DNA from: Akkermansiaceae bacterium
GTDB taxonomy: Bacteria > Verrucomicrobiota > Verrucomicrobiia > Verrucomicrobiales > Akkermansiaceae
Direction of reading: 5' to 3'
DNA: 64,000 bases
NCBI GenBank assembly: GCA_018402445.1
Contig: JAGYIT010000007.1
Location: 992,001 to 1,056,000, forward strand
Made by a program: the position numbers and the translations under genes. The notes beneath the pieces are model-generated. The model ran no database searches, was not told the origin of the DNA, and saw only the letters and a program-made list of their open reading frames with translations. Positions 3,120 through 50,788 of the stretch are shown piece by piece; the stretch's first letter is position 1; each line of letters opens with the position of its first letter.

Positions 3120-3740
3120 ATGGCCAAGAACACCACACTCAAAGCGGCGCCCCGCCTCCGCAGCGGCTCGGGCAAACTCAAGCAAATGCGCCGCGAAGGC
3201 TGGCTCCCCTCCGTGGTTTACGGACGCGGTGTCGTGAACGAGAACCTGAAGGTGGATGCAAAGACCTTCTCCGAGCTCATGGCGCGCAGCACCTCGGACA
3301 ACATCCTCATCAACCTCGACATCGAAGGGGAGGGCAGTCGCTCCGTTTTCCTCAAGACGATTCAGCACGACCCGCTGACCGGTCACGCGCTGCACGTGGA
3401 TTTCCTTGCCGTTAACGACAAGACCGAGATCACCGCGAACATCCCCGTCCATCTCCTCGGTGAGGCCAAGGGCGTGAAGGCCGGTGGCATCCTCGAGCAG
3501 TATGCCCACACATTGGAAATCGTCTGTCTTCCTAACGATCTTCCGGAAGTGATAGAAAAGGACATTACCCACCTTCAGGAGGGTGACTCCCTTCACATCG
3601 GTGAACTCGATCTTCCCGCCGGAGTCAAGGCTACCCATGCGGATGATGTCGTGGTTGCCCACATCGGCAAGCCAGCTGCGCTCGTCTCTGAGCAGGCGTC
3701 TGCCACTCCCGAGGCGGCTGCGGCACCCGCTGCCGAGTAG
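3120..3740 (+). CDS. rplY: 50S ribosomal protein L25 (long, Ctc/TL5 type)
   Basis: Binds 5S rRNA in the large subunit. The ATG at 3120 gives 206 residues: an N-terminal L25 beta-barrel (about 1-95, with RREGWLPSVVYGRG typical), the C-terminal TL5 domain (about 100-185, with DLPEVIEKDITHLQEGDSLH) and a low-complexity Ala/Pro/Glu tail. Annotated starts further upstream at 2802 would run through the promoter and are wrong. The gene leads the cluster rplY-pth-rpsF-ssb and is followed by its own hairpin terminator. Confidence 0.95.
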   Translation: MAKNTTLKAAPRLRSGSGKLKQMRREGWLPSVVYGRGVVNENLKVDAKTFSELMARSTSDNILINLDIEGEGSRSVFLKTIQHDPLTGHALHVDFLAVNDKTEITANIPVHLLGEAKGVKAGGILEQYAHTLEIVCLPNDLPEVIEKDITHLQEGDSLHIGELDLPAGVKATHADDVVVAHIGKPAALVSEQASATPEAAAAPAAE

Positions 3741-3770
3741 TACTGTCCGGACTTCCCAATCATCCTCTCA

Positions 3771-3805
3771 AACGCCCCGAGCCAGTAGCTCCGGGCGTTT
3801 TTGTT
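3771..3805 (+). terminator. Rho-independent terminator after rplY
   Basis: AACGCCCCGAG and CTCCGGGCGTT form a stem of about ten pairs around a short CAGTAG loop, with the run TTTTTGTTT behind. It sits 30 nt after the rplY stop codon. Confidence 0.8.
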
Positions 3806-3843
3806 TGATGGGAAATGGGACGGCGTTAAGACATCGGAAAGTA

Positions 3844-4497
3844 ATGGCAATTCCCCTAATCATCGGCCTCGGAAATCCCGGTAGGCAATACGAGGAGACC
3901 CGGCACAACGTGGGTTTCATGCTTCTCGACCGCATCGCCGCGAGGGAAGGGGTTGTTTTCAAAACGGAGCCGAAGTGGCAGGCTCACCTCGCGAAGCTGC
4001 CCGACGGCACCCTCCTGATGAAACCGCAGACCTTCATGAACCTCAGCGGGCGCTCGGTGCGGCAGTTGGTCGCTTTCCATAAATGGGAGATCGGCGACAT
4101 CCTAGTTGCCTACGATGACGTCGCACTGCCGCTGGGGCATTTACGTTTCCGGGAAAAAGGATCTGCGGGCGGGCACAACGGGATCAAGTCGATCATCGAG
4201 CACCTCGGCGGTGATGGCTTTCCTCGCCTGAAAATGGGAATCGGAGCCGCAAACGGATCGGGCGGGATGACCGGGCACGTCCTCGGGAAGTTCGCGCCGG
4301 ACGAACGGGAAAGCCTTGAAAACATGCTTGCCATGGCCTGCGATGCAGTTCATGTTTCGCGCTCCCAAGGTATCGCCTTGGCATCGAACCGATTCAACAC
4401 ACCAAGAACTAAACCAACCCCGAAACACGAAGATGAGCCGCAAATACGAAGGTCTGATTGTCCTGACAACGAAGAGCCAAGAGGGCAGCATGGATGA
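3844..4497 (+). CDS. pth: Peptidyl-tRNA hydrolase
   Basis: Releases tRNA from peptidyl-tRNA dropped off ribosomes; essential in most bacteria and cytosolic. From the ATG at 3844 the protein shows all family signatures: IIGLGNPGRQYEETRHNVGF (about 6-25, with the catalytic His), MKPQTFMNLSG (about 60-70), YDDVALPLG and SAGGHNGIKSI (catalytic and substrate Asn/Asp region). It is 217 residues, about 25 longer than typical, because its hydrophilic tail continues through the beginning of rpsF. The overlap is 65 nt in another frame, which suggests translational coupling, or a lost earlier stop codon. Confidence 0.93.
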   Translation: MAIPLIIGLGNPGRQYEETRHNVGFMLLDRIAAREGVVFKTEPKWQAHLAKLPDGTLLMKPQTFMNLSGRSVRQLVAFHKWEIGDILVAYDDVALPLGHLRFREKGSAGGHNGIKSIIEHLGGDGFPRLKMGIGAANGSGGMTGHVLGKFAPDERESLENMLAMACDAVHVSRSQGIALASNRFNTPRTKPTPKHEDEPQIRRSDCPDNEEPRGQHG

Positions 4498-4720
4498 CCT
4501 GGTCACCGCCATCACCAAGGACATCGAGTCCGCGGGCGCGAAGGTCGAGAAGATCGACAATATGGGGCGGAAAGATTTCGCCTACACGCCGCGCAAGGTC
4601 AGCGGTGCGCATTTCGTGACCTACACGATCACCGGCGGCCCCGAGTGCATCTTGGAAATCAAGGCGAAGCTCGCGCTCAACACCGCCGTTTACCTCAATC
4701 AGTTCAACCGCGTCGCCTAA
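4433..4720 (+). CDS. rpsF: 30S ribosomal protein S6
   Basis: Binds the central domain of 16S rRNA with S18. It is 95 residues, the normal length. MSRKYEGLIVLT starts the family fold, and DNMGRKDFAYTPRKVSGAHF is the conserved rRNA-contact region. The start lies inside the 3' part of pth. The next gene is ssb, as in many genomes, but rpsR and rplI, which often follow, are absent here. Confidence 0.95.
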   Translation: MSRKYEGLIVLTTKSQEGSMDDLVTAITKDIESAGAKVEKIDNMGRKDFAYTPRKVSGAHFVTYTITGGPECILEIKAKLALNTAVYLNQFNRVA

Positions 4721-4759
4721 GCATCGGGCGACAATCTGTCCATTTTCCTCTTCTTTGGA

Positions 4760-4780
4760 ATTTAAAATTTAAAATTTTCT
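4760..4780. repeat. Heptanucleotide-phased leader repeat before ssb
   Basis: Units GGAATTT, AAAATTT and AAAATTT run up to 10 nt before the ssb ATG. The tract is preceded by CCTCTTCTTT, resembling the reverse complement of the GGAAGAGG seen beside two other tracts. Confidence 0.55.
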
Positions 4781-4787
4781 CACCGCC

Positions 4788-5246
4788 ATGGCCAATCTCA
4801 ACAAAGTAATGCTCATCGGAAATCTGACCCGCGATCCGGAGCTACGCCATACGCCGAAGGGCTCGGCCGTCGCCGACCTCGGCCTGGCTGTGAACCGCAA
4901 GGTGCAGGACGGCAACGGCGGCTGGAAGGAGGAGGTCACCTTCGTGGATGTCACGGTCTGGGGAAGCAGCGCGGAAAACGCCCAGAAATACCTCACGAAA
5001 GGCCGCGGTGTGTTCATCGAAGGCCGCCTCCAGATGGATGTGTGGGACGACAAGGCCACCGGCCAGAAACGTAGTAAGCTCAAGGTCGTGGCAGACATAC
5101 TCCAATATTTGCCTGACGGCAAGGGCGGTGCCCCCCGCCAATTCTCCGACAATTCTACCGGCGGTGAAGATGGCGGTGGCTCGCGCCAAGGCGGTTCCGC
5201 CGCGCCAGCCGACGACTACCAGGAAGAGGACGATATCCCGTTCTGA
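4788..5246 (+). CDS. ssb: Single-stranded DNA-binding protein
   Basis: Coats single-stranded DNA during replication, repair and recombination and recruits partners through its acidic tip. It is 152 residues. The N-terminal OB fold (about 1-110) contains MANLNKVMLIGNLTRDPELR and WGSSAENAQKYLTKGRGVFI. A Gly/Ser-rich linker follows, then the tip EEDDIPF at the extreme C-terminus. A second copy of the last 36 nt of this gene lies at 13561-13596. A hairpin with a T-tract follows about 30 nt after the stop. Confidence 0.96.
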   Translation: MANLNKVMLIGNLTRDPELRHTPKGSAVADLGLAVNRKVQDGNGGWKEEVTFVDVTVWGSSAENAQKYLTKGRGVFIEGRLQMDVWDDKATGQKRSKLKVVADILQYLPDGKGGAPRQFSDNSTGGEDGGGSRQGGSAAPADDYQEEDDIPF

Positions 5247-5277
5247 TATACCCGGTCGCCGCCATTTGATATCTAAC

Positions 5278-5315
5278 GACCCCGTTGCTTTTAGGCATTG
5301 GGGTCTTTGCTTTTT
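5278..5315 (+). terminator. Probable terminator after ssb
   Basis: GACCCC (5278-5283) pairs with GGGGTC (5300-5305) around a 16-nt loop. TTTGCTTTTT follows. The stem is short, so confidence is moderate. Confidence 0.55.
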
Positions 5316-5376
5316 GTGACAAGCTCGTCACACCGAACGGATTGTTACGGAGATATGCTCCCGGCGATTTTGCTGT

Positions 5377-7851
5377 GTGTTCAGAACGTGGCGCGTATGC
5401 ATCGTTTTCCTATCCCTCGCAGCGGGCGTCCGCGGGCAGAGCGATGATCTTTTTGACGGGATTGTCACGCCGGGACTGAGGTTCCTGGGTCGTGAGGCGA
5501 GGGAACTGATGGTTTACGAAGAGCCATGGCTGGGGAGGTCTCCGGCGGCGGATGTGAAATGGCGGGTCGATTACGACGAGCGCGACCAACGGCGACGGGC
5601 GGCGGATTCCTATGAAGTCTCGCAGGCCGAACTCTTCAAGCGCCGCATCGGCGGGAGGGTCGATGTGCCGTTGCGCACGGATGACAGTCTGGACGGCGAG
5701 TGGTTCGACCTGAAAACCTATGCGGCTTGGTTCTCGCGGCGCGATGACGAGCTTTCCTGGCAATCCCGGATCCGTTTCAAGGTCGAGATCCCCGACCACG
5801 ACGCCGGTATCATGTTCTATTACCGCCACCGCGAGCGCAACGACCGCTCCGTGAGCGAGCGTACGAAGTGGGCGGGTGCGCAGAACATGCCGGACGGCGC
5901 GGACATCGCCTTCATCGACGAGCACGAGCTGAGATCCAGCCCCGAGGACGAGATCATGGACGAGGTGGCGGCGGTGCTGAGGTGGAATTTCACGCCGGGA
6001 TCGCGGCTGCTGCTGGGCGGGACATACCGGAAACAGGAGGATCACCTGATGGAGCAGCGCCTGGAATACGACACCCGGGCGGGGACGGTGGAGCTGCCGG
6101 GATCGGCTCCGCGCCGGGGCTATCCCTATCAGAGTGATACGGATGTGGTCAGCGGGGGAATCGTCACGGAGGGAACCCTGATCCCGGGAGTGGGTCGGTT
6201 GGAGAAACAGCTCAAGGACGAGGTGGAGAACAAGGAGCGCTGGGCGGGCTTCCTCGATTTCCGTCACGAATACGGGGAGCGGAGCTGGGTGGATGTGCGG
6301 GCGGATTACTCGAAACGGACGAACCGCGAACCCGACCGCCAGGACACGGAGTTCTCGGAGCGCCCCGATGCGATGTGGAGCTACCGGCTCGTGGGCGGCA
6401 GGCCGGTTTTCGAGGCGACGCCATTGCCCCAGAACACCTTCGGAGTGCGCAAGATCGAGCTGGAGAACAACATCAAGCAGACCGAATACGCCTATGCCCA
6501 GGCGCTGATCCACCATGAGGTCTCGCCCGGCCACGCGGTGGAGGCGGGCGGCTTCGCGCAGCGATACTCCGACAAGCGCGACATCAATTTCACCCGCTTC
6601 GAGCCGCCGGTTGCGGCGGCGAACGGCTTCGACGAGGTGGCGGGCGGGCCGGTGGATTCCATCTTCGGCATCCACATCGGCAACGGCATCGATCCGGGGA
6701 GGGCGCGGGCGTTCTTCGCGAACAACGGCGGTGCGCTTTCCCTCCGCCCGGCGGAATCGTTTTTCAAAACCTTCGGAGAGGACTACGACATGGAGCGCGA
6801 AATCGCGGGCGGGCACGCGCTCTACCGCTTCGACCATGAGAAATGGCGCGTCCACGCGGGCGCGAGGTTCGAGTCCGCCCACACTTCCGGCACGGCGTTC
6901 GACGCGCAATGGACGGGCAACGAATCCCCGATCCGCCCGCCCCGTGTGGAGGCGGCGGTGCGGCCGACGTCGATGTCAAAACGGGAAGACGACCTGCTGC
7001 CGGCCCTCCTCGTGGAATACCAGCCGGAGAAGAACTGGCATTTCTCCGCAAACCTCAGGCAGACCCTCCAGCGCCCGGAACTCCGCGAGTCCGCGCCGTC
7101 GCGCTATTTCAACGAGGATGACGGGGTGACGCCGGTGGCGAGATTGGGAAATCCGAACCTCGACTCCTCGCGGCAGACGCAACTGGTGCTGACCGGCAAC
7201 CACGCCTTCGCGCCCGGCTCCATGATCCGCGTGCGGGCGGAGGCATGGCAGCTTGAGAAACCGCTGACCTCGGCGGGATGGTTCGCGCCGATGGCCCTCG
7301 ACAACACCGACATCACCAACCGCCCGCTGCGGAACTACCGCTTCGAGCAATCCCTCAACGCCGATGACGGCGAGCTTTTCCGCCTCGGCCTCCACTACGC
7401 GCAGACCCTGCATTTCCTGCCGCACCCGTTCGATCAGGTGGGGCTGTTCTCCTTCTTCGATTTCACCCACAGCAGCCAGCAGGTCACGGTGGACGGGAAC
7501 CGCCGCGAGACCTCCCTCGCCTACCAGCCGGACATTCGCGGCGGCGCGGGCATCTTCTACCGCAGCAGTAAATGGGACGCCATGCTCTTCGCGGACATCT
7601 ACGACAAATACCTCATCTCCGTCGGCGAGCAGGCGAACGGACTTTCGGGCACGGGGGATCTCTACGTGGACGACCGCATCACGCTCAACGCGAGCGTCAC
7701 CTACCGCATCACGGAGAACCTCGAGGTTTACACCGAACTCCACAACCTCACCGATTCCGAGATCCGGCTCTACGAGGGCAGCGCCCAGCGCCAGATCCTC
7801 CGGGAAAAGGAAGGGCGCAGCGTGCGGCTGGGGCTGCATTGGTTTTTCTAA
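5377..7851 (+). CDS. TonB-receptor-like outer-membrane beta-barrel lacking a plug domain
   Basis: An 824-residue exported protein. The first 20 residues look like a signal peptide ending near GVRGQ. From about residue 50 it is barrel-like throughout, with alternating aromatic strands such as WQSRIRFKVEI. The late segment LPALLVEYQPEKNWHFSANL, then RQTLQRPELRESAPSRYF and LGNPNLDSSRQTQLVL, is the classic TonB-dependent receptor barrel pattern. The chain ends in Phe-Phe, as barrels do. I see no TonB box and no plug domain; upstream DNA to ssb has no room for one. The GTG at 5377 is the only usable start in frame. An out-of-frame ATG at 5355 also encodes a hydrophobic start, so a frameshift near the 5' end is possible. 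It heads the cassette with the two frameshifted secreted genes downstream. Confidence 0.72.
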   Translation: MFRTWRVCIVFLSLAAGVRGQSDDLFDGIVTPGLRFLGREARELMVYEEPWLGRSPAADVKWRVDYDERDQRRRAADSYEVSQAELFKRRIGGRVDVPLRTDDSLDGEWFDLKTYAAWFSRRDDELSWQSRIRFKVEIPDHDAGIMFYYRHRERNDRSVSERTKWAGAQNMPDGADIAFIDEHELRSSPEDEIMDEVAAVLRWNFTPGSRLLLGGTYRKQEDHLMEQRLEYDTRAGTVELPGSAPRRGYPYQSDTDVVSGGIVTEGTLIPGVGRLEKQLKDEVENKERWAGFLDFRHEYGERSWVDVRADYSKRTNREPDRQDTEFSERPDAMWSYRLVGGRPVFEATPLPQNTFGVRKIELENNIKQTEYAYAQALIHHEVSPGHAVEAGGFAQRYSDKRDINFTRFEPPVAAANGFDEVAGGPVDSIFGIHIGNGIDPGRARAFFANNGGALSLRPAESFFKTFGEDYDMEREIAGGHALYRFDHEKWRVHAGARFESAHTSGTAFDAQWTGNESPIRPPRVEAAVRPTSMSKREDDLLPALLVEYQPEKNWHFSANLRQTLQRPELRESAPSRYFNEDDGVTPVARLGNPNLDSSRQTQLVLTGNHAFAPGSMIRVRAEAWQLEKPLTSAGWFAPMALDNTDITNRPLRNYRFEQSLNADDGELFRLGLHYAQTLHFLPHPFDQVGLFSFFDFTHSSQQVTVDGNRRETSLAYQPDIRGGAGIFYRSSKWDAMLFADIYDKYLISVGEQANGLSGTGDLYVDDRITLNASVTYRITENLEVYTELHNLTDSEIRLYEGSAQRQILREKEGRSVRLGLHWFF

Positions 7852-7863
7852 CAGATTTTTTTT

Positions 7864-9408
7864 ATGGGATACGGCAAAATCATCATCGGCGGCGCGGCGT
7901 GTTTCCTGGCCATGGGAAAACTCTCGGCGCTGGAGTTCGTGGGCGAGGCGCGGCTGCCGGCAGGCTCCGCGGAAATCCTGGCCTACGAACCGGCCACCAA
8001 GCTCATCTACAGCACGCGGGGTTCCTCCATGGCGAAAGGGTTGGTGGTCATCTCGCTGGCGGAGCCGCACAAGCCACAGGTCGTCGGCGAGATCGACCTG
8101 CGGAAAATCCATCACAGGGGCGTGGATTCCGTCTCCTCCGTGGCCGCCGATCCGTTGGGGCGGGGGATCATCGCGGCCTCGATCATCCCGAAGCATCCCA
8201 CCGAGTTCACCGGCAGGGTTGCGCTGATCGACGCCCGCAGCCGCGAGATCGTCCATGTCGTGGATGTCGGCTGGCATCCGGATTGCCTCAGCTTTTCCGA
8301 GGACGGCCGCTATCTCCTTGCCGCCTGCGAGGGCGAGTATGCGAAGGGGAAAACCAACAGGCCCGGCTCGCTCGGCGTCGCGAATTTCTCCAAGGTGAAA
8401 TCGGCGGCGGATCTGGGTTCCGTGCATTTCAAGGATCATCCTCTCGGCCCGAGGGAGGCCGTCAAAGGCGTCCGTTTCCCCTACGAGACCGACCCCTCGC
8501 GGCTCCACCTCGACTTCGAGCCGGAATACGTGACCTCCGACGGAAAGAACGCCTACGTTTCCCTCCAGGAAAACAACGCGCTCGGGGTCTTCGATCTCGC
8601 GGGCGGGTATTGGAAAAAATCATCCCCTTCGGCGCGTGGCCGGTGCGGGCGGATGTATCGGATCGCGACGGGCCGTGGGGCAGGCGCTCGATCAAGGTCA
8701 CCGACGAGGTGCTGGGTATGCCCATGCCGGATACCATCGACATGCTCAAGGTCGGCGGGCGTCCCCTGATTTTCACCGCGAACGAAGGCGACGGCGACAA
8801 CATCGCGCGGGTGAAACACCTCGGCAAAGTCATCGCCCTCGCTTTGCCCGGAATACCGCGCGGAACTCAAGGCGATCTACGGCATCGATCCCCAGCAGGA
8901 TGCCGGGCTGGGCCGGCTACAGGTCTCGCAGGTGGACGGCCTGAACGAACGCGGCCAGATCGAGAAACTCCACATGATGGGCACCCGTTCCTTTTCCATC
9001 TGGGATCCGGCGACCGGGAAACGGGTCTATGACTCGGGATCCTTTTTCGAGGATCACGCCGCGCAGCACGACCGCGAATCGTTCAACCACAACCGCGGCT
9101 CGCTGGCGCAATGGGACCGCCGCTCCGACAACCGCGGCCCGGAAACCGAGGCCATCTGCACGGCGATGGTGCGCGGCGTGCCGATGGTGTTCGTGGCCAA
9201 CGAGCGCCAGAACGGACTCTACGCCTTCAACATCTCCAACCCGTCCTCGCCCAAGCTGCGGGGCTACTACTGCGGCGGGCGGCACCGCCACATCTATCCC
9301 GAGTGCATCCTTTTCCTGCCCAAAGACGCTACCCCGCTCGGCCGCGAAGCCATCGTGACCGCCTGGGAAGCTTCCTCCTCCATCACCATCCACATTCCCA
9401 CACCATGA
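7864..9408 (+). pseudogene. Choice-of-anchor I-like secreted propeller protein, two frameshifts
   Basis: It starts 12 nt after the barrel gene with a signal peptide (about 1-20, ending LSA). The first frame (7864 to about 8614) encodes propeller-like repeats such as VDVGWHPDCLSFSEDGRYLL and FEPEYVTSDGKNAYVSLQEN. The frame is lost at a run of six A at 8614-8619, where seven would restore it. It resumes as RPLIFTANEGDGDNIARVK, a signature of choice-of-anchor I family proteins. It is lost again near 8845 and resumes to the stop at 9408 with LYAFNISNPSSPKLRGYYCG. All three pieces are collinear parts of one protein of about 514 residues. Sequencing error or real decay are both possible. The function of the family is not settled; some members sit beside phosphatase-like genes. 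Confidence 0.65.
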
Positions 9409-12400
9409 AATCCATCATCACACTCCTCCTCGCCTGCGCCACCCTGGCCACCGCCAACACCGTCCTCATCACCGAGGTGAACTCGAACGCCTCCGGCGGC
9501 GACTTCTTCGAACTCCACAACTACGGCGCAAGCCCCGTGAACATCAACGGCTGGAGATGGACGGACGATCAGGCCAACTTCCAGGGAGACAAGATCGTGA
9601 CCTTCGGAGATGTGACGATTCCCGCAGGTGGCATCCTCGTCGTCGTCCAGGCTGCGGATGATATCGGTTTTCCGCGCCGCCTGGAATGATCTCGATCCCG
9701 CCATCGCCACCGCCGCCATCGGCGGCCCCGGTCTCGGCCAAAACGATGCGGTCGTCCTCTTCGATGCGGACGGCGATTTTGTCACAGGGTTCAATTACAA
9801 GGCGGGCAATGTCACTGTCACACAGGGGGACACCACCACCGTCACGCTCCCGCCCATGACCAGGATCGACGGCAACCCATCCGGCGGCGGGCACGCGGGA
9901 ATCGCCGCGGGCGGCACGATAGGCACCGTCTCCGCCGTTTGGGATCCGAACTCCGGCACGACCGAACCCCGCTACACTTTCGCGGCGCTCGGAAGCCTCT
10001 CCGCCTATGCACAAACCGGCAGTCGCCGCCAGCATCGGCTCACCCGGCCTGGTAGGCACCGGTGTGGTCGGGAACGCCCCACCCGTCTTTTCCAGCAGCC
10101 CGCGCACTTTCGGCGTGGAGGGCTTCGATCTCTCCAACTCCCAGTTCTTCGTCACCGCCAGCGACCCGAATCCCGGCGATGTCGTCACCCTCAGTGTGGT
10201 GGAAAAGCCCGAGTGGCTGAACGTGAACCTCACCAGCGGAGCGGTCACAGGCACGCCGCCTGCAAAGGGCGATTACACGTTCGTCATGCGCGCCACCGAC
10301 AACGCCGCGCCCCCGCTCTTCACCGAGCAGACCATCACCATCACCGTATTCCCGGAAAGCTCGAGCGTCCTGCTCAACGAATATAACGCCGTTTCCGCCA
10401 CGAACTTTCCCGGCGGCGGCACTTTGGAAAGCCCCACCACCTCGGACACCTTCTTCGGGCGCATCCTCGGAAACGGCGGCGAGTGGTTCGAGCTGGTCGT
10501 CGTCGGTGACGGCACGGCCGGTTCCACGGTGGATATGCGGGGCTGGAAAGTCGAGGTGCTCGGCGATCTCGGCCTGCGCTCGATGGTTCTCTCGCAAGAC
10601 CCCTACTGGGCCAACGTCGCGGCGGGCACCCTCCTCACCTTCATCACCAACAACGCGGCCAACGGCGGCGCGGACACGGAAATCCACAAGTCCAGCGCGC
10701 TCCATAACGATGGCTTCCTGTGGTCGAACATCTGGCTTTTCGATCCGGTCTTCATCGACCAGGCGGCATCCGATTTCAACAACCGCCTCGGCATCAGCAA
10801 CAGCGACACGAACATCCTCATCCGCGACGCGAGCGGCGAGATCATCTTCGGCCCCGCCGGCGAGGGCATCGCCACCGGCGGTGAGCCTCCGAACCCTGTG
10901 GGTGTCAGCTCCACCGAGGTGCTGAAACTGGAGACCAACCCCGAGCCGTTCATCGACCCCTTTTACAGCCCCTACAACGACGGCTCCACCTCCACCTTCG
11001 GCGGGCCGAACGTCTGGTCGGGCGGCGCGAACTCGCAATCCTTCGCGGCCTACCAGTCCGCGAACTCGCCGCCTCAATTCACCTCAACGCCCGTGACCCG
11101 CGCCTACGGCTCCTATAGCTACGCGATCACCACCAGCGATCCGAACAGCCACTCCGTGACCCTGTCCGCCACGGAGCTCCCGGATTTCCTCACGCTCACA
11201 CCCGGCGCGGGCGGCACCGCGACCCTGGAGCTGAACCGCGCGCTGACTTTGGCGGATGCCGGTTTCCACACCGTGCGCCTCGTCGCCAATGACGGCCAGC
11301 CCGCCAACAACCTCACCCCGCAGGCTTTCCTTCTGACCGTTTTCCACGACGCCCCCACCGTGATCCTCAACGAATACAACGCCGTCTCCGCGGAAAACTT
11401 CCTCGGCGGAGATGACAGCGGAAGCGGTGGACACCCACTTCGGCCGCGTGCCGGGCAACGGCGGGGACTGGGTGGAGTTCGTGGTCGTCGGAAACGGCGG
11501 CCCCGGCACCGTGGACATGCGCGGCTGGGCCATCGAGATCGGCACCTCCCGCGCCGGGACTCTTTTTGAAACCTCCAACACGCTGACCCTCAGCCAGGAC
11601 GCGGCGTGGTCAGCAGTACGCACGGGAACCATCCTCACCTTCACCGCCGCGAACACCGCGGGCGGCGGCCTCGATACCGGCTTCAACCTGCGCGACCGCT
11701 CCACCACCCTCGGCGATTCATGGAGCAATGTCTGGATGGGCGATTCGCAATACGTCTCCGTCAGCGGCGCGACCGTCGATGGAAACACCGTAACGGACAT
11801 CCGCATCAGCGCGGACGACACCCAGTTCATGGTGAAAAACGCGCTCGGACACATCGTCAACGGCCCGGTGGGCGAGGGGATCGCGCCGCTTTCCGGCATT
11901 TCTTCCACGGAAATCTTCGAGCTGGAGGGCGATCCTTCGCCTTCCGTCCCTCCTTTCATCGCTTCGGATGACACCGTGGAGCCACCCGTGGAAGGCTACG
12001 ACGATGGCTCCACCGGCTCCACCTTCGGCTCGCCCAACGAGTGGAAAATCGGAGCGGGCGGAGATCCGACCTCGCAGGATTTCACCCCCTACATCAGCGC
12101 AGAGCCGGAAGATCCGTTTCGACACCTGGATCTCCGCTTTCAACCCGCCGCCATCCGACCTCACCAAGCTCGGCGATCCCGATGGCGACGGCCGCTCGAA
12201 CTACGAGGAATACGCCCTCGGCGGCGATCCCCGCTTCCACGACGCGCCGCCCGCCCAGACCGTCAACCGCACCGGCGCGGACATCGTCTGGAGCTTCGCC
12301 GTGCGCGACGATGCCGGCATCGATTACACGCCAAAGCGCTCCCCGGATCTCACGCAGTGGTTCGAGTTCACCGCGCCGCAGATCCAGAGCGTGCCACATC

Positions 12401-12495
12401 CGGATCTGGCTGACTTCCTACTCATCACCATCACCGCCACCGCCGTTGCCACGGACGGCAAGGAGTTCGTGCGGGTGGAGTTTGTGATCCCGTGA
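9405..12495 (+). pseudogene. Large secreted lamin-tail-like multidomain protein, four frameshifts
   Basis: The ATG overlaps the previous stop (ATGA). A signal peptide (MKSIITLLLACATLATA) leads into a lamin-tail-like domain (VLITEVNSNASGGDFFELHN). Frames change near 9665, 10020, 11410 and 12117, but the pieces join into one protein of about 1,030 residues. Order: lamin-tail-like domain, a cadherin/Ig-like domain (ASDPNPGDVVTLSVVEKPEW), domain copy A beginning VLLNEYNAVSATNF, another Ig-like domain, then copy B beginning VILNEYNAVSAENF. The C-terminus carries the calcium-loop-like GDPDGDGRSNYEEYALGGDP and a beta-rich tail. The tail type is frequent at the end of secreted verrucomicrobial proteins. 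The product probably acts at the cell surface together with the barrel. No catalytic motif is visible. Confidence 0.62.
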
Positions 12496-12649
12496 AACGC
12501 CAGACCTCCGGATAAGCAAAAGGAATCCCCAACGTGAAGAAAACGTCACTGTTTCGGGATTCAAAAGGACAGTGATTTCCGAGATACGAATGCGGCTCGT
12601 TCATGCAACGCTACGCCCGATTCCCCAGAACAACATTACGATAAACATC

Positions 12650-13462
12650 ATGAAACAAACCAAGACATTGCTCGCATTCATCTCCCTTGCCCTCGCCTCG
12701 CAGGCGTCCGGTGCGCTCATACTTAACGAATACAACGCCGTCCGTGCGGATCGCTGGCTTGATGCGGATGGACTCGCAGCCTCTACAGCAAGCGACACCT
12801 TTTTCGGTCGCATCGTTGGAAATGGCGGTCGCTGGTTCGAGACTCTGGTTGTCGGAAACTCAAGCGTACCGGGAGCAACCATAGATATCCGCGGCTGGTC
12901 TTTCGGGTGGACAAGCACCGATGTGGCAAGCGGCAGCTTCACTCTTACCAACAATGCCGCGCTCAGTGCGGTTCATCGTGGCACACTCCTGACATTTTTT
13001 TCCCAGGATGCAAGCGGTCCGAATGTCGAGACGAATTTCAACACTTACGATCCTACGAACGGTAACTGGTGGCTGAACATTAACCTTGCCGACGGCGCTT
13101 ACATCGCATCTGGAACGCTCGATACTGGCAATGGCAACTGGCAGCTCACTATAAGGGACGCATCGAATGCCGTTGTCTTCGGACCTGCGGGTGAAGGTGT
13201 GGGCACTTTCAGCGGTGTCAGTTCCCGTGAGGTTGGCAAACTTGAGGCCTTCACCTCCGCGACTATCACCGAATGGCAGGGCATCACTCCAAACTCCATT
13301 GAGTATGAGGACGGCACAAGCAGCACCTTCGGATCCGCAAACCTGTGGAGCGGCGCTTCCAACCAACAGGACTTCAGCTCCCTGCGCGTCATCCCCGAAC
13401 CCTCCACCGCCCTGCTCGGCGGACTTGGCCTTCTCGCGCTGCTTCGCCGAAGCCGTAAGTAA
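12650..13462 (+). CDS. PEP-CTERM protein with a single lamin-tail-like domain
   Basis: A 270-residue exported protein. The signal peptide (MKQTKTLLAFISLALASQAS) is followed by one copy of the domain found twice in the upstream gene: LILNEYNAVRADRW, then DTFFGRIVGNGGRWFETLVV, IDIRGWSFGW and VVFGPAGEGVGTFSGVSSRE. The C-terminus VIPEPSTALLGGLGLLALLR, then RSRK, is a textbook PEP-CTERM sorting signal, recognised by exosortase (EpsH-type), which is not in this window. The ATG at 12650 was chosen because it starts the signal peptide; the frame is open from 12572. The protein likely ends up in the envelope or extracellular matrix. A hairpin terminator follows. Confidence 0.85.
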   Translation: MKQTKTLLAFISLALASQASGALILNEYNAVRADRWLDADGLAASTASDTFFGRIVGNGGRWFETLVVGNSSVPGATIDIRGWSFGWTSTDVASGSFTLTNNAALSAVHRGTLLTFFSQDASGPNVETNFNTYDPTNGNWWLNINLADGAYIASGTLDTGNGNWQLTIRDASNAVVFGPAGEGVGTFSGVSSREVGKLEAFTSATITEWQGITPNSIEYEDGTSSTFGSANLWSGASNQQDFSSLRVIPEPSTALLGGLGLLALLRRSRK

Positions 13463-13542: not shown

Positions 13543-13596
13543 GGCGGATCGGAATCCGCCGACGACTAGCAGGAAGAGGACGACATCCCGTTCTGA
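13543..13596 (+). pseudogene. Displaced copy of the ssb 3' end
   Basis: Positions 13561-13596 match the last 36 nt of ssb (5211-5246) with two differences. The reading frame gives D-D-stop-Q-E-E-D-D-I-P-F-stop, so the acidic SSB tip is preserved but a Tyr codon TAC has become TAG. Just before it, GGCGGATCGGAATCCGCC can fold back on itself. There is no ssb sequence further upstream, so this is a fragment, not a gene. Confidence 0.7.
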
Positions 13597-13628
13597 TTTC
13601 CACTCTGCGGCTTCAATGGCCGCAGAAT

Positions 13629-13679
13629 ACGGGCGACAGGATGTCCCCCGGACGGACTGGGACTGCAAGTCCCAGCCAC
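13629..13679. repeat. 51-nt hairpin repeat, copy 1
   Basis: This block recurs at 50738-50788 with a single mismatch. It contains the perfect stem TGGGACT-GCA-AGTCCCA. It sits just downstream of pyrB (minus) and after the ssb remnant. Confidence 0.85.
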
Positions 13680-15806: not shown

Positions 15807-17083
15807 GGATTCCGGCGCATGGGATTTCGCCTCGGGGAAATGAAGGATGCCGATGTCGCGGCGGCGCTGGAGGCCGTCGAAGCGAGATCTCATCGGCGAG
15901 CGGCGTGGGCGGCGGCAACGGTGGAGCTGCGCGCTCCGGACCGGTGGCCACGCAGGCGAGCACGCGCCCGCCGTTCGTCTGCCATTCGGTGCCCGTGAGT
16001 TTCGTGCCGGAGTGGAAAACCCGCGCGCCGGTTTCATCGAGGCCGGAGATCACATCGCCGGAGCGGGAGCTTTCCGGATAGCCGTGCGAGGCGAGGATCA
16101 CGCACACCGACCAATCGTCGGAAAAGGAGATTAGCTCCCGTTTCAGCGCGCCCATCGCGCCGGCGAGGCAGAAGGCCGCGAGGTCGCCGCTGAGCAGCGG
16201 CATCACCGCCTGGCACTCGGGATCGCCGAAGCGGCAGTTGTATTCGATTACCTTCGGGCCGTCCGGCGTGAGCATGAGGCCGAAGTAAAGGAAGCCGCGG
16301 TAAGGCAATCCTTCTTTCCGCAGGGCGGCCACGGTCGGCGCGACGATGGACTCGTCAATGGTCGTCAGCAGCTCGGAGGAAATGAGTTTCCGCGAGGCCA
16401 CCGCGCCCATGCCGCCAGTGTTCGGGCCGGTGTCGCCATCGCCAAGGCGTTTGTAATCCCGCGCCGGGGTGAGGATCATGTAATCGTCGTCCACGATGGC
16501 GGCGAAAATGGAAACCTCCGGCCCGACGAGGCATTCCTCGACGAGCAGGCGGCCGGGGCCGAAACGTTTTTCCGTGAAGACCTCGTTGAGGAAATCGAGC
16601 GCGGATTTCTCATCCGCGCAGACAGCCACGCCTTTCCCGGCGGCCAGTCCGTCAAATTTCAGGACGGTCGGGTAATTCCCCGCGATGGCGGTGACGGCCT
16701 CGTCGAGAGACTGACAGGCGCTTGCGGCGGCGGTGGGGATCTGGTTTCGGACCAGGAAGTCCTTGGCGAACTCCTTGCTCGCCTCAAGCTGCGCGGATTC
16801 CTTCGGCGGCCCCCAGCAAGGGATGCCGTTCGCCGAGCAGAGGTTCGCGAGGCCATCGCCCGTGACGAGATAGGATTCCTCGCCCGCGATGCAGAGGTCG
16901 ATGCCGTGATCCTTTCATCCAGGCGATCAGCGAGGGCAGGTCGGTGGCGGTGGTAGGCTGCGCGATGCGGAAGATCGCGTCGCTTCCCGGGAAGGAAAAG
17001 ATCGCGGGCTTCGAGGGGGATAGAGAGAGGGTATGGATTAGCGCGTGCTCGCGCCCGCCTTTTCCTACGACAAGTATTTTCAT
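15807..17083 (-). CDS. purD: Phosphoribosylamine-glycine ligase, frameshifted
   Basis: GAR synthetase, the second step of purine synthesis (ATP-grasp, cytosolic). The ATG at 17083 opens MKILVVGKGGREHALIHTLS. The frame breaks at about 16917, where removing one G (ATGAAAGGATCAC to ATGAAAGATCAC) restores DHGIDLCIAGEESYLVTGDG. The main part then shows LLVEECLVGPEVSIFAAIVD, GPNTGGMGAV and YNCRFGDPECQAVMPLL. Near the 3' end the frame changes again (about 15885-15940) before the family terminus FDGLQRRRDIG. As purD is needed for purine synthesis, these are most likely assembly errors. The 3' boundary is therefore approximate. It leads the purD-pyrR-membrane protein-pyrB operon. Confidence 0.85.
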
Positions 17084-50737: not shown

Positions 50738-50788
50738 ACGGGCGACAGTATGTCCCCCGGACGGACTGGGACTGCAAGTCCCAGCCAC
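50738..50788. repeat. 51-nt hairpin repeat, copy 2
   Basis: Second copy of the block at 13629-13679; they differ at one base. It lies between arsC-like and hisC. The stem TGGGACT-GCA-AGTCCCA is perfect. Confidence 0.85.

Follow-up and report, generated by a model that had tools for sequence, protein, structure and literature searches.

In the window, by which we mean the whole 64,000-nt stretch of DNA that was analysed, we found four plus-strand genes lying between ssb and pyrB (both named from their own sequences) and encoding proteins with sequence-based export signals (Table 1). The first is an uninterrupted reading frame with a signal-peptide-like start and encodes a barrel of the TonB-dependent receptor type. 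It is followed by the genes for a choice-of-anchor I propeller, for a large protein with lamin-tail (LTD) and Ig-like domains, and for a PEP-CTERM protein. The spacing from which an earlier note on this DNA had proposed an operon of the first three genes, a 12-nt gap followed by an ATGA overlap, is real at both junctions.

Table 1. Positions of the genes and repeats of the ssb-pyrB interval in the window.
Feature	Coordinates	Strand	Remarks
Left 40-bp direct repeat	5208..5247	+	ssb 3' end including the stop codon; 38/40 identity
Plug-less TonB-receptor-type barrel	5377..7851	+	Intact, 824 aa; PF00593 and TIGR01782 from residue 91
N-terminal segment in the plug's place (residues 22-90)	5440..5646	+	Conservation within the protein is highest in residues 22-54
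Choice-of-anchor I propeller gene	7864..9408	+	Broken; PF22494/NF038117 on the pieces; intact orthologue P0001
Gene for LTD, Ig-like (He_PIG) and two LNEYNAV domains and a C-terminal part	9405..12495	+	Broken; PF00932 and PF05345 on the pieces; intact orthologue P0002
PEP-CTERM protein, 270 aa, with one LNEYNAV (LTD-variant) domain	12650..13462	+	PF07589; alignment
Right 40-bp direct repeat	13558..13597	+	Displaced ssb 3' end with in-frame TAG, just past the fourth gene

Barrels of the receptor family are wide pores, kept shut by a plug that is moved by TonB. Profile searches matched the first gene's product to PF00593 (E 4.8e-10, 40.3 bits against a cut-off of 27; the orthologue in G063, another species in this genus, reaches 50.5 bits against the same cut-off) and to TIGR01782 (E 2.5e-52) over residues 91-824, up to the C terminus. 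The latter score, 178 bits, lies below the curated cut-off of 310, and on this evidence the barrel appears to be related to the Xanthomonas/Caulobacter receptor subfamily TIGR01782. The TIGR01782 match begins at residue 91 and model position 125 in the window protein and in its G063 relative alike, and residue 91 is the start of an IGG motif. In a full-length receptor from the same phylum group (L061), the Pfam Plug domain spans residues 148-254, with the equivalent IGG at residue 251; in a global profile alignment the IGG motifs of the plug-less barrel and of the full-length receptor coincide. The shared alignment of this motif, together with the start of the match, thus indicates that the resemblance of the protein to the receptor family breaks off at the junction between plug and barrel.

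What precedes the junction is not a recognisable plug. Residues 1-130 had no Pfam match at E<=10, either in the window protein or in its G063 orthologue, and the positive control L061 returned the Plug domain at 4.3e-13; a search of the whole genome with PF07715 likewise gave no plug at the cassette locus. The description of a receptor-like barrel without a plug is therefore confirmed, in two species. The accompanying claim that there is no TonB box fared less well: by eye neither protein has a canonical box, yet close to the predicted mature N terminus the two share an invariant VTPG stretch (IVTPG/LVTPG) that may represent a divergent TonB box, which leaves the claim insecure.

The place of the plug is occupied by 69 residues unrelated to it. 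Between the window protein and its G063 orthologue identity reaches 79% over residues 22-54, compared with 53% over residues 55-88 and 56-68% over stretches of the barrel. Since residues 22-54 are more conserved than the barrel itself, the N-terminal segment is under constraint and, judging from the sequences, likely functional. Two accounts of the missing plug could be rejected. Truncation of the barrel at its 5' end is at odds with the G063 relative, which has the same start and the same architecture. A separate plug encoded elsewhere was rejected for plugs visible to the profile: there are six plug matches in the window's own genome and fifteen in G063, each adjoins its own barrel with no orphan left over, and only the cassette barrel, of all barrel matches in the two genomes, lacks a plug immediately upstream (the pairing was read from coordinates). 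Across 39 relatives the summed totals are close, with 199 barrel matches and 212 plug matches.

The arrangement is kept in G063. There, a plug-less barrel of 825 aa, 63% identical to that of the window, is followed by a propeller (511 aa) and an LTD protein (1,032 aa), all intact and tightly spaced, and the overlap between the propeller and LTD genes is identical to that in the window. The earlier note had asked whether relatives carry a plug-bearing homologue at the same place or lack the neighbourhood; in this one same-genus relative the homologue is plug-less too and the order of the three genes is conserved. The window barrel is therefore no damaged or truncated copy. The case for conservation comes from this single relative, and it does not extend to the fourth gene, whose counterpart in G063 is not an orthologue.

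The barrel is rare: of 260 family genomes, 2 were found to carry it. Among 387 genomes of the phylum the matches beyond these two are distant receptors; seven of eight have a plug-like N terminus by eye (L061 being the one tested with the profile), and the eighth, L059 in genome G494, is plug-less. A wider search of genome contigs and a search of viral contigs returned no relatives of the barrel, and the plasmid matches listed are distant receptors only, with 22-27% identity. The propeller and the LTD-type protein each occur separately in other genomes that have no such barrel. Moreover, no receptor lies beside the propeller at any of seven loci where it occurs outside large fusions, nor at any of four plasmid loci.

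The fourth gene was correctly described as encoding a PEP-CTERM protein that shares a domain, LNEYNAV, with the LTD protein; the PF07589 motif at its C terminus scores 23.2 bits (cut-off 20.7). At the fourth position in G063 stands another PEP-CTERM protein, which carries an ordinary LTD domain and is not orthologous to that of the window. Profile comparison identifies LNEYNAV as a variant of the LTD domain (E 1.7e-6, probability 90%). Pfam LTD gave no match to P0005 at E<=1, and a structure model of LNEYNAV from three sequences was unusable (pLDDT 33.8). The domain was found in 8 of the 387 phylum genomes, often in tandem. Proteins with tandem LNEYNAV domains, in frames of 934 to 1,445 aa, are encoded in distant genomes (L113-L116, L120-L129).

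All four genes are bracketed by the two 40-bp copies of the ssb 3' end, which, as a sequence pattern, look like the scar of an insertion that brought the four genes in at the 3' end of ssb. We found no third copy of this repeat in the ~0.47 Mb of the genome that was read, no ssb-type repeat around the G063 cassette and no integrase between the borders, the four genes filling the interval. An empty ssb site was not met in the ~1.6 Mb of G004 that was read, where ssb itself was not encountered. A palindromic 17-mer, GGGACTGCAAGTCCCAG, occurs at 13659-13675 and again at 50768-50784; with about ten copies in ~0.47 Mb it is an interspersed repeat.

The second and third genes have the domains attributed to them, and their window copies are broken. 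The choice-of-anchor I identity of the propeller stood (PF22494 at 44 and 77 bits on the window pieces, and at 138 bits, above the cut-off and over profile positions 12-487 of 489, on the intact G063 protein, for which NF038117 stays below its cut-off, at 278 against 300), but the window copy has no continuous reading frame. Similarly, the third gene does encode lamin-tail and Ig-like domains (PF00932 at 39.6 bits on the window piece and 74.3 bits in G063, with a cut-off of 34.3), but the ~1,030-residue protein that the earlier note had described is intact only in the relative. From the three reading frames, codon-usage segmentation and alignment with the intact orthologues, we located frame changes in the propeller gene near 8614 (one base lost next to an A6 run) and near 8840 (net +1), and four in the LTD gene, each net +1, near 9660-9686, 10005-10013, 11410-11416 and 12100-12112. 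The alignments thus place six breaks within window positions 8611-12112, of which one removes a single base and the other five are net +1. No break is seen in the barrel gene or in the PEP-CTERM gene. With the same scoring, 348 kb of this genome gave a background of roughly one candidate every 10 kb, false positives included, so that the five scored breaks in 4.6 kb are an excess over the ~0.5 expected (Poisson ~2e-4, uncorrected for the number of places in which one might look). Other candidate breaks in the window, at 15884 (purD/pyrR region), 32825 and 54921, are not accompanied by a stop codon close by in the upstream frame.

We hypothesise, tentatively and with somewhat less than even confidence, that the plug-less receptor barrel functions as a port that has an N-terminal segment in place of the plug and works with secreted partners. 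In this proposal a barrel related to TIGR01782 would have lost its plug at the usual junction between plug and barrel and gained a short conserved N-terminal segment. The barrel could then serve as a dedicated port in the outer membrane, probably without further need of TonB, with the 69-residue segment lying in or over the periplasmic mouth, where it might act as a lid and limit leakage. The propeller and the lamin-tail/Ig protein would be dedicated partners, most likely engaged in capturing a substrate at the surface. Several observations count against a port with partners. The trio is found in two species only; the propeller and the LTD-type protein are also found in genomes that have no such barrel; and the VTPG stretch might still serve as a TonB box. 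Furthermore, the barrel is intact beside broken partner genes, which, should the breaks be genuine, is not what one would expect of an obligate complex. A model of the barrel from its single sequence (pLDDT 30.6) is too poor to use, and comparison with solved structures by sequence gave nothing useful. That the locus holds a TonB-independent port of an undescribed kind, made of a plug-swapped barrel, a propeller and a lamin-tail protein and passed from one species to another as a small cassette, is a stronger claim, and we regard it as rather doubtful.

The broken genes could instead point to a decaying insertion in the window's organism, in which the second and third genes have lately become pseudogenes, leaving the barrel without partners. 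The excess of breaks over background, the bracketing ssb repeat and the absence of the cassette from nearly all relatives would all fit such a history. However, constraint is not visibly relaxed: identity of the broken genes to their intact orthologues is mostly 54-69% by piece, much like the 63% of the barrel, which means that decay, if there is any, must have begun recently. Neither the barrel gene nor the PEP-CTERM gene is broken, and the same picture is expected from a local assembly error; real decay and assembly error look alike here. We consider a decaying insertion unlikely.

Another possibility, which we consider quite unlikely, is a secretion or display port, in which the plug-less barrel would pass or anchor the propeller, the LTD protein or both. 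Cargo-like exported proteins are encoded right behind the barrel, and there is a precedent in Oar of Myxococcus xanthus, a receptor-type barrel required for secretion of the PopC protease (PMC6434023). Oar, however, possesses both a plug and a TonB box (PMC11658791), and such a pore would be a tight fit for a folded propeller of ~500 residues. Finally, the version put forward in the earlier note, an open pore on which the secreted propeller, the LTD protein or both would sit as a cap, is very unlikely in our view: that two species keep the gene order and the close spacing is in its favour, but the constrained N-terminal segment offers an internal alternative, and the persistence of the barrel next to partners that are no longer intact, if the frame breaks are real, makes capping by neighbours less likely. 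On sequence conservation, residues 22-54 of the barrel are a better candidate for closing the pore than the secreted neighbours, and the latter may capture substrate for the barrel or pass through it.

A port with an N-terminal segment and partners resembles several known systems in part. TonB-dependent receptors (TIGR01782; PF00593 with PF07715) share its barrel over the whole stretch between the plug/barrel junction and the C terminus and differ in having a plug, whereas the window barrel has 69 unrelated residues instead and a score below the cut-off. The likeness to Oar is that a receptor-type barrel is tied to exported proteins and not to a small nutrient. The propeller and LTD domains recur in the choice-of-anchor I/LTD/5'-nucleotidase surface proteins of the same bacterial family, one of which (L057) holds propeller and LTD domains in a single polypeptide of 2,595 aa; in the cassette the two are on separate genes behind a barrel and the nucleotidase domain is absent. 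SusC/SusD pairs of Bacteroidota also encode a receptor-type barrel together with surface partners, but no SusD family appears among the profile matches of the four genes, and the cassette barrel has no plug.

No description of a naturally plug-less receptor was found in the literature searched, which lay mostly outside subscription journals and is thus weak evidence. A natural and conserved plug-less barrel, if true, would mean that the barrel of this family can be reused without its gate. At the same time, the window barrel provides a concrete protein with which to ask how leakage through the pore is prevented and whether TonB is still needed. A parallel in architecture is the plug-less L059 (820 aa, 3558-6020, minus strand), whose TIGR01782 match starts at model position 137 and in which a Plug match is absent. 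It differs from the window barrel in having another N terminus, in occurring in another family and in having no propeller nearby. Such a second barrel, of another sequence type, suggests that plug-less barrels form a class that can be surveyed. The L059 barrel is divergent from an adjoining full-size receptor-like gene.
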